From assembly GCA_030605285.1 (NCBI GenBank), contig JAUWIQ010000006.1, positions 1 to 15,616 on the forward strand: a stretch of 15,616 nucleotides of DNA, in the 5' to 3' direction. Shown piece by piece: positions 7,262-13,830 of this stretch. The translations under genes and the position numbers were made by a program. The notes below the pieces were generated by a model, which did no database searches, had not been told where the DNA came from, and saw only the letters and a program-made list of their open reading frames with translations. The stretch's first letter is position 1. Each line of letters opens with the position of its first letter. The stretch comes from Planctomycetota bacterium. Lineage in GTDB: Bacteria; Planctomycetota; Planctomycetia; Pirellulales; UBA7805.

Positions 7262-7864
7262 ATGGCTCTCACCGATGTCCTAACGAAACGGCAGAAAGCC
7301 GTTTATGATTTCATCCGTGACAAGATTCGCAATCGGGGGTATGGCCCCACGGTCCGTGAAATTGGTGATGAATTCAACATTCGATCCCCTAATGGTGTCA
7401 TGTGCCATCTCAAGGCGATTGAGAAGAAAGGTTTAATCACGCGCGAGAAAAACTTGTCCCGTGCCATTAATCTTGTCCGCGAACCGGTGGAGGAGCGGGG
7501 CTTGCCGCTCTACGGTATGATTGCGGCGGGCGTACTGCACGAGGCGGTCGAGCAGGATGAGCGCATCGACTTTACCGGCCTGTTCAATAAAAAAAATCTG
7601 TTTGCACTAAAAGTCAATGGAGATTCCATGATCGAAGATTCGATCATGGATGGTGATCATGTGATTGTTCGCAAACAGCGGACTGCGCAAAAGGGTCAGA
7701 TTGTGGTCGCGATCACCGAAGAGGGCGAGGCGACGCTAAAGCGCTGGTATCCGGAGGCGAATCGGATTCGTCTGGAACCTGCAAATTCCGCTATGAAGCC
7801 GATCTACGTCGATGATGCCCGAATCTTGGGGACCGTTGTGGGCGTGGTTCGTCGGATCGAATGA
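7262..7864 (+). CDS. lexA: LexA repressor, autoproteolytic SOS regulator (family S24)
   Basis: LexA represses DNA-damage genes until RecA filaments trigger its self-cleavage. The 200-residue protein has the family length and order. The N-terminal winged helix spans about 1-68, with TVREIGDEFNI (30-40) leading into the recognition region. The cleavage site is Ala89-Gly90 (GMIAAGVLHEA), the nucleophile is Ser122 (NGDSMIEDSI) and the general base is Lys160 (ATLKRW). All residues needed for self-cleavage are therefore present. The recognition segment SPNGVMCHLKAIEKKG (42-57) differs from E. coli, as expected for a different operator. ATG 7262 follows AAAGG at 7251-7255 with six bases between. It is monocistronic and divergent from sppA, with a promoter and a possible operator upstream. 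Confidence 0.96.
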   Translation: MALTDVLTKRQKAVYDFIRDKIRNRGYGPTVREIGDEFNIRSPNGVMCHLKAIEKKGLITREKNLSRAINLVREPVEERGLPLYGMIAAGVLHEAVEQDERIDFTGLFNKKNLFALKVNGDSMIEDSIMDGDHVIVRKQRTAQKGQIVVAITEEGEATLKRWYPEANRIRLEPANSAMKPIYVDDARILGTVVGVVRRIE

Positions 7865-8008: not shown

Positions 8009-9382
8009 CTATTCAGATTCCTTCAGGAGGGACTGGTTTAGCTTGTTGTAAAGTGTTTTGAGACTGATGCCAAGTTCCTCTGCTGTCTTGGGCTTGTTTC
8101 CGTCGTTGCGCGTGAGTGCCTGCTCGATGGCTTGCATTTCAAGATCTCGAAGAGTCAGGGTTCCAATGTTTGTCATTTTTAAGCTTCGTATACGACGGGT
8201 CTCGAAATTATTTGGCAGATGTTCTGGGAGAATGGGCCCTGAATCACACAAGATTGAGGCATGTTCAATCGCGTTGGCCAGTTCTCGTACGTTGCCAGGC
8301 CAGGAGTGACTCGAGAGAACTTTGATTGCCTGAGGGGAAATCTTTTTTGCGGTTGAGTGCGAGGGCCGAAAACGATTTAACAAATGCTCAGTCAATAACG
8401 GCAGATCTTCAATGTGTGTCCGAAGCGAAGGCAACGAAATTTCAAAGGTATTAATGCGAAACATCAAGTCTTCGCGAAAATCGCCTGCGACTACCATATC
8501 CTGCAAATTCCGGTGCGTTGCACAAAGCACCCGCACGTCAAATACGAAGGAATCGTTCTCGCCAACTCGACGAATCTCACCACTTTCAAGAAAACGAAGA
8601 AGTTTTGCCTGCATCGCTTTCGGTAATTCGCCGATTTCGTCCAGGAATAAGGTTCCTCCACTGGCGACCTCAAAAAGTCCTTTACGATTGTCATTCGCAC
8701 CAGTAAACGCACCTTTACGATGACCAAAGAGTTCGCTTTCGATCAGACTCTCGGGCAAGGCGCCGCAATTAATTGCTACAAACGGTTTGTCTGCACGCTT
8801 GCTCTGGTCGTGTAGTTCGCGCGCGGCCAGTTCCTTGCCCGTGCCAGTTTCTCCAAGAACAAGCACGGTCGAGTTTGTAGGAGCCACTTTAGTGATTAGG
8901 TCACGGACATTTTTTATTGCCTCACTATTACCAACCAAACGAGCGGATCCCTGCAGTTGTTTGACACTGCGTTTGAGTGCGACACACTGGTTTTTTAGAT
9001 CGCGCTTCTCGCAAACTTTATTGAGAACATTTTCCAGTTCGACAAGTGTGCATGGTTTTGTGAGATAATCGAAAGCGCCATGGCGCAAAGCAGCAATTGC
9101 AGTTTCGATGGAAGACTTTCCAGTCAGGACAATGGCATCTGTATCTGGCGCGAGTTCAGCTGCTTTTTCGATAACACCGATACCGTCGATTCCGGGCATG
9201 TTGAGGTCGATCAGGAGACAGTCATACGTATTACGCTCTAATGCTGCGACCGCGGTCAGGCCATCCGGACAGACAGTGACTTCGTGCCCCATTCTGGGCA
9301 GTTCCTCGCTCATCAATTCCTGCAAATGTTTTTCATCATCTGCAAACAGAAGTTTGAGTCCTGTTGTCGGTTTGCTGGCGAT
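8009..9382 (-). CDS. Sigma-54-dependent response regulator, NtrC family (ATC start proposed)
   Basis: This is a full three-domain activator: receiver, AAA+ and Fis-type helix-turn-helix. It is expected to open sigma-54 promoters after phosphorylation by the kinase encoded just upstream. With the proposed ATC start at 9382 it has 457 residues: acidic pair Asp15/Asp16, phosphoacceptor Asp59, Thr87 and Lys109 in the receiver; Walker A GETGTGKE (177-184); the sigma-54 contact loop GAFTGA (224-229); Walker B GGTLFLDEI (242-250); HTH at about 429-449. No in-frame ATG, GTG or TTG precedes the acidic pair. TTG 9325 would delete it, and CTG 9349 would start at FADDE and lack the first beta strand. ATC 9382 lies seven bases after GGAG (9393-9390) and gives MASKPTTGLKLLFADDE. 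Either a rare ATC start is used or an ATG has been mutated or misread. The kinase gene ends 81 bases upstream, in the same frame. Confidence 0.85.
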   Translation of the reverse strand: MASKPTTGLKLLFADDEKHLQELMSEELPRMGHEVTVCPDGLTAVAALERNTYDCLLIDLNMPGIDGIGVIEKAAELAPDTDAIVLTGKSSIETAIAALRHGAFDYLTKPCTLVELENVLNKVCEKRDLKNQCVALKRSVKQLQGSARLVGNSEAIKNVRDLITKVAPTNSTVLVLGETGTGKELAARELHDQSKRADKPFVAINCGALPESLIESELFGHRKGAFTGANDNRKGLFEVASGGTLFLDEIGELPKAMQAKLLRFLESGEIRRVGENDSFVFDVRVLCATHRNLQDMVVAGDFREDLMFRINTFEISLPSLRTHIEDLPLLTEHLLNRFRPSHSTAKKISPQAIKVLSSHSWPGNVRELANAIEHASILCDSGPILPEHLPNNFETRRIRSLKMTNIGTLTLRDLEMQAIEQALTRNDGNKPKTAEELGISLKTLYNKLNQSLLKESE

Positions 9383-9389
9383 TTGAATT

Positions 9390-9393
9390 CTCC
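9390..9393 (-). promoter_or_regulatory. Ribosome-binding site that decides the response regulator start
   Basis: On the minus strand AAAAAGGAGA covers 9398-9389, with GGAG at 9393-9390. Its spacing to ATC 9382 is seven bases. To the alternative ATT at 9388 it is only one base, and the CTG and TTG alternatives at 9349 and 9325 have no comparable site. It therefore points to the ATC codon as the start. Confidence 0.6.
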
Positions 9394-9463
9394 TTTTTAG
9401 TACGTCTGAATCTGTTCTACAAATTTTGGCTATTCTCTGAATCGCTTTTGGGTAGATGCCGTT

Positions 9464-11062
9464 TTATGCCGCCTGATAATGTAGCGTTTTTGTTTTTTCT
9501 TTTTTGCCTGCCAGTGGCAATAAGATATGAAATTGCGAACCCTTGCCGGTGCCGATACTTTTTGCCTCGATCCGTCCACCATGGTCTTGAATGATGCGAT
9601 GCGCAATCGATAAGCCCAAACCAGTCCCCTGACCATCTTTCCGCTGTGTGAAAAAGGGCTCAAAAAGGTTCTGCTGCACCTCTTCCGTCATGCCACAACC
9701 GTTGTCTGAAACCACAATTTCCGCCATCCCCTCGCGAATTCCCAAAGTCAAAGTGATGCTGCCCTCGCTATCGACGCTATCCATGGCATTCGTGATCAAG
9801 TTGAGAATGACTTGTTTAAGTCCCTGGGGATTCGCAGTGGCCATGATCGATTTGCAGGGCTTGAGCTCAATATGTTTTTGTTGTGTCTTAATCAATGGCC
9901 CAACCATTTCAACAATGCCCTGGACCAAACTCCGCAAATCAGTATTTTCCTCCGTTCCATCACCGGTTCTCGAAAAATCCAGAAGCTGTGCGGTGATTTC
10001 CTTGCAGCGAAACGCTTCTTCTTGGATCATGCGCAGGTACTTGTGGATGGCATCCACCTGTTCTTTATCGATAACGGTATTTTCTTCCAATCGTTGCTCA
10101 AGGGATTCAGCACAAAGGGCAATCGATGCCATGGGATTATTGATTTCGTGGGCCACACCCGCTGCCAGGAAGCCCACACTCGCCAATTTTTCACTGCTCA
10201 CCATTTGGATCGTTCTCTGTTCCACTTTCTGATCCAAGTCGTTGCATATGATTTGGAACTGATCGGTCATGTTGTTCATCGCTTCGGCAAGTTCTGACAT
10301 CTCATCATGACCCGGCAAATAAATTCGGTAATTGAAATCGCCCAAGGCAACGCGTCTCGATCCTTCAATCAGTGCACGTAAGGGCTTAAAAATCCAGATT
10401 ACGAATAGCTTAATAAATATGAGAATCATACCAGTGGCCAGCAGAATACATGCCCAAGTGGTCACAATGAGAGTTCGATAATGAATGCGGACACTATCGG
10501 CCAAGGTCCGTATGCGTGTATGAAGGTAGCTCGGAAGCTCCACGCTAAATTGCTGTAGACTTTGAAGGTCTTTGTCAATTTGTTCAACTTCAGCTTCATC
10601 AATGATCCAGTCAGGATCACGAGTTATGCCTTCAATATGTGACAAGATGCTTTCTATTCTGTGTGCCGTCTGGCGCTCCTTATGACCATGACCAATACCG
10701 GATGCATTCCACTCATTACCGCGCAGTTGCTTGCGGTACTGGATTAACGTTTGCTCAAATGTCTGCAAAGATAGGCCGAATTGCTCGCGTAAAATGGGAT
10801 AGCGGGTAACAGGCTTTTGAGAGCTCGTGCGATAGAGGTTATGCAATTGATCAATCTCAGTGAGCGTGACACGAAGATCGGTTACCTGCTGGCCCAGTGC
10901 AGTGGCGAATGGCAACTCGTCCGCTCGGCGATTAATGCTTTTGACGAGGTTGCGATATGAATACAGTCCAATCAGGCCCGCCGTTGAGAGCGTGGCCATG
11001 AGGACCAGCAGCAGCAGGAGCATGAGACACAGCTTGTATCGAATGGGCCATTTAGCGAGCAA
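9464..11062 (-). CDS. Membrane sensor histidine kinase (HAMP, HisKA, HATPase)
   Basis: The kinase presumably phosphorylates Asp59 of the sigma-54 regulator encoded next. I start it at TTG 11062 (532 aa), because a perfect AGGAGG (11074-11069) lies six bases upstream and the protein then begins directly before TM1. A GTG at 11143 would add 27 residues that contain this SD. TM1 is about 11-33, an extracytoplasmic helical sensor region about 34-197, TM2 about 198-225 and HAMP about 226-280. The phosphoacceptor is His305 in GVAHEINNP. The ATPase domain has the N box NLITNAMDS (421-429), G1 DNGCG (453-457), the F box FEPFFT (467-472) and G2 GTGLGLS (479-485). The sensor region is mostly amphipathic helix and its ligand is unknown. 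The stop is TAA 9466-9464. Confidence 0.93.
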   Translation of the reverse strand: MLAKWPIRYKLCLMLLLLLVLMATLSTAGLIGLYSYRNLVKSINRRADELPFATALGQQVTDLRVTLTEIDQLHNLYRTSSQKPVTRYPILREQFGLSLQTFEQTLIQYRKQLRGNEWNASGIGHGHKERQTAHRIESILSHIEGITRDPDWIIDEAEVEQIDKDLQSLQQFSVELPSYLHTRIRTLADSVRIHYRTLIVTTWACILLATGMILIFIKLFVIWIFKPLRALIEGSRRVALGDFNYRIYLPGHDEMSELAEAMNNMTDQFQIICNDLDQKVEQRTIQMVSSEKLASVGFLAAGVAHEINNPMASIALCAESLEQRLEENTVIDKEQVDAIHKYLRMIQEEAFRCKEITAQLLDFSRTGDGTEENTDLRSLVQGIVEMVGPLIKTQQKHIELKPCKSIMATANPQGLKQVILNLITNAMDSVDSEGSITLTLGIREGMAEIVVSDNGCGMTEEVQQNLFEPFFTQRKDGQGTGLGLSIAHRIIQDHGGRIEAKSIGTGKGSQFHILLPLAGKKEKTKTLHYQAA

Positions 11063-11248: not shown

Positions 11249-12430
11249 TCAATATCGCATGACTCTTCTGATCAGAATCGCACTCCAGATTACCAGCGTT
11301 ATGTTGCCCAGCCATACGCAATAGGGGGGCCACTCGCCATTTTTTGCCTGCTCGATACTGATCATCAGGACAGGATAATAGACAATTAAAATAGGCAAAA
11401 AGCAAAGAAAAAAGGTGGTCCAGAATTCACCATGGCGCCGGCGAATTGCCAAGGGCGCACCGACTGCGACGAAAAATAGGCAACTAAATCCTGCCGCCCA
11501 TCGCCGATGCGGCTCGGTGTTTAAACGAAATATTTTTGCCTTTTCCCCGGCGATTCCCCGGCTTAGAGATTCGCCCGACTCAAATAGTTTTTCAAAATCC
11601 CCTGAAACCATTTTGAAGGCGGAGGTCACCGCAAGTTGTTGTTCAAAGGATTCGATACGCTTGTTTTGAATAATGACTTCTTGAGGGATCTCGCTGAGCG
11701 CCATTTGCGATGGACTGCCTCGAGACTGTGATTTTCGAGCCGCGCGATTCAGCGGTATGACGCGAGTGATAGTGTCGGGGAATACGCCTTCCACGTCACC
11801 ACCAACCGCACTGCCATTATGCATTAAAATCGTGAGAGAATCATTCTCTACATCGGAGTGGAGTTCTGCCCATTCGGCGCGAATAACAATTGTTGGAGAT
11901 TGTCCAGACGGCTTGAATGTAAGTGTTGGATGAATCAGACGTTTCCCCTCAACCGATTTTACATTGATCGAAAATTGGTTGGTATAATGTGAACCGTGAT
12001 TTTTTAAACGGCTATAAGCAACTTCCTCAATGGATTCGAGTACAATGCGCTGCATCCCCCGTCGACCCCAAGAGACTGCAAGGTCATTAAGCCAAACGGT
12101 GGTAAAACTAAGTAGAACAAAGGCGGCTAAGCTTGGCCAAAGGATCCGCCAGGGTGAAATGCCGAGTGCCTTGATTGCAATAATTTCATTGGAAGAGGCC
12201 AGGCGTCCAAAAACCAGACAGGCAGCGAACAGAGATGTTGCGGGAATCGCAAAACGCAGGGCATCTGGGAGAATATAGGGTAACAATTCAGCGATTTGGG
12301 AGAACTGAAGTCCCTGCAAGTGGAGCTCACGGATGATCACAAACAGTAGCATGACCGTTGTGATCGCACTGATGGCGATCAGAAAGACAGCCAGCAGCTG
12401 CGAGAGGACGTATCGCGTGAAGATGTACAT
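11249..12430 (-). CDS. LptF/LptG-family permease (YjgP/YjgQ)
   Basis: Members of this family form the membrane part of the ABC exporter (with LptB) that lifts lipopolysaccharide from the inner membrane. The 393-residue protein (from ATG 12430) has the expected plan: three N-terminal membrane helices, a periplasmic beta-jellyroll-type region (roughly 130-300) and three C-terminal helices. The typical N-terminal stretch LFAACLVFGRLASSNEIIAI contains the conserved G-R-L-x-x-x-x-E segment before TM3. LptF and LptG cannot be told apart here, so no symbol is given. The frame could start at TTG 12460, but ATG 12430 places the start just before TM1 as in homologues. Neither start has a clear ribosome-binding site. 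It lies between the PP2C and kinase genes on the same strand. No LptA, LptB or LptC gene is visible. Confidence 0.88.
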   Translation of the reverse strand: MYIFTRYVLSQLLAVFLIAISAITTVMLLFVIIRELHLQGLQFSQIAELLPYILPDALRFAIPATSLFAACLVFGRLASSNEIIAIKALGISPWRILWPSLAAFVLLSFTTVWLNDLAVSWGRRGMQRIVLESIEEVAYSRLKNHGSHYTNQFSINVKSVEGKRLIHPTLTFKPSGQSPTIVIRAEWAELHSDVENDSLTILMHNGSAVGGDVEGVFPDTITRVIPLNRAARKSQSRGSPSQMALSEIPQEVIIQNKRIESFEQQLAVTSAFKMVSGDFEKLFESGESLSRGIAGEKAKIFRLNTEPHRRWAAGFSCLFFVAVGAPLAIRRRHGEFWTTFFLCFLPILIVYYPVLMISIEQAKNGEWPPYCVWLGNITLVIWSAILIRRVMRY

Positions 12431-12490
12431 GAATCGCAAATAACCAAGGAATCGCGGCAAAGAAAAAATGCTGAGCGTTATTTTGCGGCT

Positions 12491-12534: not shown

Positions 12535-13830
12535 TCAGAACAAATCAACGTGGGAATCGCTGATCTGTTGTGCAGAATTGCGATTTTTGAAAGCGGCGAC
12601 TAAAAAGGAAATTCCCCGGCTATAGTGGTAAATGCCACCCTTCAAATCGTTGTTGTGAATGGCTTCGCTTGCACGTTCGATGATCGTATCGTAGTTCTGC
12701 CATTCGATTGGGGTGCCGTTCTGCTCTGCCGTTTGTCTTAATTCCGCTACCATGTTGGCGAAATTTTCAACGGTATTGGTAGAAGGCTTGCAATCATAGC
12801 TTCGATAGGGCCCTCGGCCGAACATTTGGACCGGTTGCGCTACTAAAGTGTCTTCTTCATTCGAATCAAATTTTTGCAAAATAGCGATAATGCCAGCAAC
12901 GGTGGCACCGATGCCGCAGAAAACACCCCAAAATGGTTCCTGCAAAACAAATAGCACGATGGCCACAATCGATAACAGGAAGGCCGTAATCCAAGTAAAG
13001 GGGATCCCATTCGGTGGAGACGTTTCCATCGTGTTCACATTGTTTTGGGCAACAGGCGGATGGTCCACCTGGACCACAACGACTGAAATATTATCGGGCC
13101 CTCCGCGAAGGTTTGCTAGGTCGATGAAGGTGCGCGCCGCCTCAGCCGGTGGCATGCAGCCAAGGATAGTACCGATTTGCTGATCACTGATCGGCCCAGT
13201 CAATCCATCACTACAGAGCAGATAGACATCGCCCACAATTATTGGGAAGGGCCCCTCCAGGTCGATCTGGACTGTCGGGTTAGGTCCCAGGGAACGCGTG
13301 ATGATATTTTTTGGCAAATGCATTTCGGCGGCCTCCGGCGATACCCGCCCGGTGGCCTGCATTTCCCAAACAAGGCTATGGTCAAAAGAGAGTTGGTCCA
13401 ACTGCCCATTTCGTAATCGGTAGATGCGGCTGTCGCCCACGTGTGCCACAATTGCACCTTCCGGAAGCAGCAGTAATGTACTGCAGGTCGTGCCCATCCC
13501 CTGAAATTCCAGGTCTACCTGTCCCCGCTGAAAAATAGTCTCGTTGGCTTCGATCATCGCTTGTCGCAATGCAGGTACAGGTTCCGTAGCCAAATCCTTG
13601 GAATAGGAATGGGGGATGCTGTCTGCTGCTAGCTTACTGGCCAATTCCCCGGCAGCATGTGCACCCATGCCGTCTGCAACCAGGAAAAGATGTCCTCTTT
13701 TCCTCCAAAAGGCCTCGTCGCTGGAGACCAGAGTATTTGTAGCATCCTGGTTGTTCTTGCGCCGCATTCCTACATCTGAGAGCGACGCAAACCGGATACA
13801 CCGTTCGAATTGAGGAAGATTCTGCATCAT
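12535..13830 (-). CDS. PP2C-type protein phosphatase with C-terminal membrane anchor and helical tail
   Basis: This metal-dependent Ser/Thr phosphatase resembles Stp/PrpC, the partner of Hanks-type kinases. The domain fills about 10-256 and keeps the metal-binding and core motifs: DVGMRRKNNQD (19-29), ADGMGAHAAGE (52-62), GMGTTCSTLL (111-120), HVGDSRIYRLR (130-140), CSDGLT (206-211) and GGPDNISVVVV (243-253). Two close hydrophobic helices follow at about 280-297 and 299-318, so the phosphatase is tethered to the membrane with its catalytic domain in the cytoplasm. A tail of about 110 residues ends in a predicted helical segment (355-417) like those seen on other planctomycete phosphatases; I cannot name a domain for it. 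ATG 13830 is immediately followed by ATG 13827, with no good ribosome-binding site for either. It is the first gene of the four-gene minus-strand block. No protein kinase is in the window. Confidence 0.9.
   Translation of the reverse strand: MMQNLPQFERCIRFASLSDVGMRRKNNQDATNTLVSSDEAFWRKRGHLFLVADGMGAHAAGELASKLAADSIPHSYSKDLATEPVPALRQAMIEANETIFQRGQVDLEFQGMGTTCSTLLLLPEGAIVAHVGDSRIYRLRNGQLDQLSFDHSLVWEMQATGRVSPEAAEMHLPKNIITRSLGPNPTVQIDLEGPFPIIVGDVYLLCSDGLTGPISDQQIGTILGCMPPAEAARTFIDLANLRGGPDNISVVVVQVDHPPVAQNNVNTMETSPPNGIPFTWITAFLLSIVAIVLFVLQEPFWGVFCGIGATVAGIIAILQKFDSNEEDTLVAQPVQMFGRGPYRSYDCKPSTNTVENFANMVAELRQTAEQNGTPIEWQNYDTIIERASEAIHNNDLKGGIYHYSRGISFLVAAFKNRNSAQQISDSHVDLF

Follow-up and report, generated by a model that had tools for sequence, protein, structure and literature searches.

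Gene organization and the proposed start site

On the minus strand of the window (the whole 15,616-nt stretch of DNA analysed), genes for a PP2C-type phosphatase (12535..13830), an LptF/LptG-type permease (11249..12460), a histidine kinase (9464..11062; HAMP, HisKA and HATPase_c domains) and a response regulator (RR; 8009..9382, read from AUC and including the stop codon) lie in this order, and lexA (7262..7864, plus strand) faces the RR gene; all were assigned by Pfam. The same order of the phosphatase and permease genes is present in the related locus L001, and lexA adjoins the RR gene in L032 too. The RR contains the Pfam domains Response_reg, Sigma54_activat, AAA_lid_14 and HTH_8, i.e. a receiver, a sigma-54 AAA+ domain and a Fis-type HTH, which is the architecture of the NtrC family, and its translation includes KGAFTGAND, with the GAFTGA loop that is a motif of NtrC-family response regulators. 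It scored below the NCBIfam curated cut-offs for AtoC, NtrC and ZraR (401 bits for the best AtoC model, with a cut-off of 714). ZraR-like regulators of Planctomycetota are tied to sigma-54 in a passage of PMC12316311.

The RR frame is open from the kinase stop codon (TAA, 9466-9464) to the RR stop. The first canonical start codon (ATG, GTG or TTG) within it is the TTG at 9325, downstream of the acidic pair of the receiver (GAT GAT, 9340-9335), and a start there loses the pair. ATC at 9382-9380 (minus strand), the proposed AUC start, is located seven bases 3' of GGAG (9393-9390), part of the full Shine-Dalgarno (SD) site AAGGAG (9390..9395, minus strand; duplex energy -8.7 kcal/mol), and the N-terminus read from it is (M)ASKPTTGLKLLFADDE. 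An earlier note on this DNA had reported that no canonical codon preserves the receiver, that TTG 9325 costs two acidic residues and that ATC 9382 follows GGAG by seven bases; all three observations held exactly. The other near-start codons in this stretch are only ATTs farther upstream and a CTG within the first receiver strand (LLFADDE), and the RR thus has a codon other than AUG, GUG and UUG at the sole place that keeps the protein intact. No RNA structure masking the RR start was found beyond that of shuffled sequences (z 0.59, -0.32, 0.79).

An 81-nt gap (9383..9463) separates the kinase stop from the AUC; no such gap is present in most of the AUC relatives, where the two genes overlap. 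By eye, TTG at 11062-11060, 6 nt after AAGGAGG (site and codon together 11075-11060, minus strand), was proposed as the kinase start, and in both genes a weak codon may go together with a strong SD.

The window kinase ends with LHYQAA-stop (9484-9467 without the stop). Its Ala-Ala is retained among the relatives (L001-L215) while the rest of the tail varies, and was found in 126 of the 144 loci with a kinase end (90/105 overlapping and 36/39 non-overlapping). Elsewhere, Ala-Ala ends 11 of 161 other long ORFs (L001-L035) and 0 of 19 kinase-like ORFs (L036-L080). The Ala-Ala of the kinase is possibly a C-terminal degradation signal of the ssrA type.

Start codons among the related loci

Named relatives at 65-72% identity were fetched, and ATC was present at the equivalent place in L001-L006 and L032, with ATG in others. 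A search of the family of one genome gave matches in 10 of 10, and among 396 genomes of its order 309 had a match at E 1e-140; as the 100 loci fetched are the better-scoring part of these 309, the share of AUC in our sample is not that in the order. Duplicate fetches of seven loci (L081-L087) were removed and L033, which starts inside the gene, and the paralogues L088-L090 were left out, whereas two pairs of apparently identical records (L011/L209 and L018/L215, none of them AUC/AUU) were kept unmerged. This left 160 loci including the window, of which 156 were read automatically, 3 by eye, and one (L206) was unreadable. The automatic reading gave 83 AUC/AUU (including L127, L193, L093 and L094, assigned by hand, which have ATG elsewhere in frame), 69 ATG and 4 GTG/TTG loci; by eye, L190 and L200 were AUC/AUU and L139 was ATG. 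AUC or AUU is therefore found at the place of the window's RR start in 85 of the 159 related loci read, and 70 have AUG. The 83 measured loci comprise 75 ATC and 8 ATT; 78 of them share an identical SD spacing of 6 in the alignment.

The alignment of orthologous starts, proposed as a check in the earlier note, thus favours a genuine AUC start, and that note's other suggestion, that 9380 carries a base error or an isolated ATG-to-ATC change, is refuted. Four AUC/AUU loci are in genomes assembled as one full contig (AUC in L124, L131 and L159, AUU in L204); since one contig spans the whole genome, draft quality does not explain them. The window belongs to a clade of eight genomes without overlap (window, L091, L092, L002, L003, L096, L093 and L094), all of which keep AAGGAG-N7-AU(C/U), and in this clade agreement at fourfold sites of the RR gene is 0.22-0.38 between lineages (near-saturated) and 0.76-0.78 in two close pairs. 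The codon is thus conserved against a one-step change to AUG in 8/8 genomes of this clade and in 85/159 loci, although AUG is nonetheless used in 70/159.

In trees based on 267 columns, with many weak forks, AUC/AUU is scattered across most of the tree, and ATG arose several times in addition to one large ATG group. FastTree (156 rows) gave 14 start-class changes, and 11 for the AUC/AUU label versus ATG; a quick IQ-TREE run (147 rows, with 9 rows left out) gave 12 and 10, respectively. From the class at large, order unspecified, 20 more distant loci (55-61% identity) were fetched, and the 19 read by eye had 11 ATG, 6 TTG and 2 GTG starts, with no AUC/AUU start among them; one, L256, has the same kinase tail, with TTG at the homologous position and SD distance above it. 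Three NtrC-type paralogues (L088-L090, three genes only) from the same set of genomes start with ATG. One genome (G174) carries two RR copies (L103 and L143), both AUC-started. Two or three consecutive ATC codons occur at the start in L006, L032, L134, L142, L145 and others, so that the exact first codon is ambiguous in these loci.

The strength of the SD differs between the start classes. Its median duplex energy is -8.5 kcal/mol in AUC/AUU loci, whether or not the genes overlap; in ATG loci it is -3.3 where they overlap and -1.3 where they do not. An SD at -6 kcal/mol or below was found in 82/83 AUC/AUU loci versus 12/69 ATG loci, counts that are uncorrected for kinship and a contrast that is partly built in, because assignment to the AUC/AUU class demanded an SD of at least 4 nt, but not for the 69 loci lacking a canonical codon (see below). 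Ribosomal-protein starts were not used as a control, the search pattern having demanded M. Since the weak codon pairs with a strong SD and the strong codon with a weak one, selection for a set, modest initiation rate is suggested; L133, L136 and L178, with AUG at the identical place and a strong SD, are left unexplained by this idea.

Alternative starts and overlap with the kinase gene

Initiation at a canonical codon up- or downstream, or by kinase read-through or frameshift, with the AUC as an ordinary isoleucine codon, would agree with the databases, in which other starts are often annotated: the FADDE motif is missing in 32 of the 120 homologues listed. However, the entry P0018 (NCBI; apparently the L001 gene) is annotated with M at the ATC position. 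No canonical codon is present at or before codon -4 from LFADDE in 69 of the 156 loci, the window included, and every one of the 69 carries an in-frame ATC/ATT that follows an SD by 2-10 nt; since the other two frames of these stretches gave 1 SD-spaced ATC/ATT/ATA in 138, this is more than expected by chance. Among the 83 AUC/AUU loci, the stretch is free of canonical codons in 41, holds one at -2 only in 28 and holds others in 14. A start at the -2 codon would leave the receiver intact, but this codon is mostly TTG, most copies are without an SD, it is CTC in the window and it is not conserved, whereas the SD is placed for the AUC. Twelve of the 14 loci with other canonical codons show no SD of 4 nt at these (in L142 solely the -2 TTG has one), and two of the 14, L093 and L094, have ATG four codons before LFADDE. 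Furthermore, an in-frame stop lies no more than 9 codons 5' of the AUC/AUU in 21/83 loci, 6 of which lack any canonical codon before LFADDE. As the kinase and RR share a frame in the window, read-through of the TAA would fuse them; the relative frames differ, however, between close relatives (L092, L002, L003) and in the overlapping loci, and fusion by read-through or frameshift was rejected. Initiation elsewhere is therefore quite improbable. An error of sequencing at 9380, or a loss-of-function change that arose there recently, has in its favour that ATC is one base from ATG, but with the same codon class in independent assemblies of the related loci its probability is negligible.

A point missed by the earlier note is that in most relatives the RR start lies within the kinase gene. 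In 60 of the 83 AUC/AUU loci it is covered by the end of that gene, which is read in another frame: shifted by one frame, the RR-start bases ATC GCT ACC AAG CCG CNT AA read CAT CGC TAC CAA GCC GCN TAA (HRYQAA-stop). The SD encodes KE in the kinase frame. Kinase codons of the form NAT-CNN/TNN make the AU(C/U), of which the NAT part follows from the definition of the AUC/AUU class and is no independent proof. Kinase overlap alone could fix the AUC, a conserved kinase tail dictating the bases and the regulator tolerating a poor start, and the frequency of AUG in loci without overlap (22/39) is consistent with this. However, the kinase residues encoded across the start are variable (H49, D5, N3 and Y3, followed by R50, Q4, H4 and F2), a single base change suffices for AUG, as in the overlapping L133 and L178 (and in L136, in which no kinase end was called), though few loci have made it, and the independent-pairs test of overlap versus start codon, corrected for kinship, was not significant. 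Moreover, 15 loci without overlap keep AUC/AUU, among them the near-saturated clade of the window; L203 and L211 weigh less here because a relic of the kinase tail remains, and where the kinase of L172 ends is uncertain. Overlap as the sole cause is disfavoured by these 15 loci and by the overlapping loci that reached AUG, and the codon as a mere by-product of it is improbable, somewhat less so than initiation elsewhere. Since AUG is common without overlap, overlap may still slow reversion to AUG. AUC/AUU is kept at a fixed SD spacing even where the kinase frame demands nothing, and the RR AUC is most likely a weak start favoured by selection, for which a strong SD makes up.

A proposed weak start under initiation control

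The comparison of loci indicates that the conserved AUC start in a two-component regulator is real. The RR is probably translated from AUC 9382-9380 by way of the strong, optimally spaced SD, and the weak codon and strong SD together would set a modest, IF3-sensitive initiation. The SD would select the AUC as the start; initiator tRNA would read AUC poorly, which with the strong SD would give a modest initiation rate; and the RR would be sensitive to IF3, which rejects such starts. Orthologues with AUG would reach a similar rate through a weak SD. In most relatives, where the start lies within the last codons of the kinase, coupling to kinase translation may also act. The earlier note's alternative proposal of a deliberately weak start is thus supported by conservation in near-saturated lineages without overlap and by the pairing of weak codon and strong SD; as that note has it, such a start would keep the regulator scarce relative to its kinase.

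The gene for IF3 itself bears on this reading. We found infC in 29 (L216-L244) of the 30 genomes of this order examined, with ATC at its start, as judged by eye, in 23 of the 29 (a few also with GTG, TTG or ATG nearby), which indicates that this group uses AUC starts. ATC was present in all 17 genomes with an AUC/AUU regulator and in 6 of the 12 others (9 with an ATG regulator and 3 unread). The six infC genes without ATC (L220, L221, L228, L232, L239 and L240) are apparently N-terminally extended. By analogy, IF3 control of the RR is plausible: repression by IF3 of non-canonical starts in E. coli and of the sigR start in Streptomyces is described in PMC5472188, exclusion of weaker third-base pairs by IF3 in PMC10158994, and a lowering of re-initiation, too, by excess IF3 in PMC2268962.

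Several known genes resemble the RR in part. Like infC, which is autoregulated and starts with AUU/AUC, the latter also in these genomes, the RR has a near-cognate AUY start apparently kept by selection. Unlike infC, it is a transcriptional regulator with no self-feedback through IF3, its start is often embedded in the partner kinase gene, and in several lineages its codon has gone back to AUG, accompanied by a weaker SD. In E. coli pcnB, a gene named in the earlier note, an AUU codon is a weak start limiting an enzyme, and the RR resembles it in its weak AUY start. Autoregulation of infC and its ATC start in Streptomyces are mentioned in PMC5472188, where sigR is described as starting with GTC or GTT (32 and 2 species, respectively, out of 34) and as repressed by IF3. 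According to that account, sigR is similar to the RR in being a regulator gene with a conserved non-canonical start, an extensive SD and misannotation in databases. It differs in codon, phylum and regulator family; the gene for its partner RsrA lies downstream, and its repression by IF3 was established experimentally, whereas that of the RR is inferred. In Listeria, as summarized in PMC13068326, rare or flexible starts account for under 0.3% of the core genes and six conserved genes have fixed non-canonical ones, with infC (ATT) and rnhC (ATC) confirmed by experiment; rnhC shares the fixed AUC start with the RR, but is no two-component regulator. At the level of titles and abstracts in the open-access literature, we found no response regulator described as having a near-cognate start.

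More broadly, and with some doubt, it is possible that this is an order-wide two-component system in which initiation fidelity keeps the output of the regulator at a set point. Here the AUC and strong SD would sense IF3 and the initiation state, and in most species the start would double as coding sequence of the kinase tail; with the Ala-Ala of the kinase as a possible degradation signal, both partners would be scarce. If the AUC start is right, gene finders misplace the RR start, removing the phospho-acceptor part of the receiver in many database entries. The AUC, AUU and AUG loci, with and without kinase overlap, are natural replicates for testing the trade-off between start codon and SD strength. 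If the selected AUC start is true, a response regulator would join the very few bacterial genes in which selection keeps a near-cognate start, with an example from a phylum in which little work on translation has been done.
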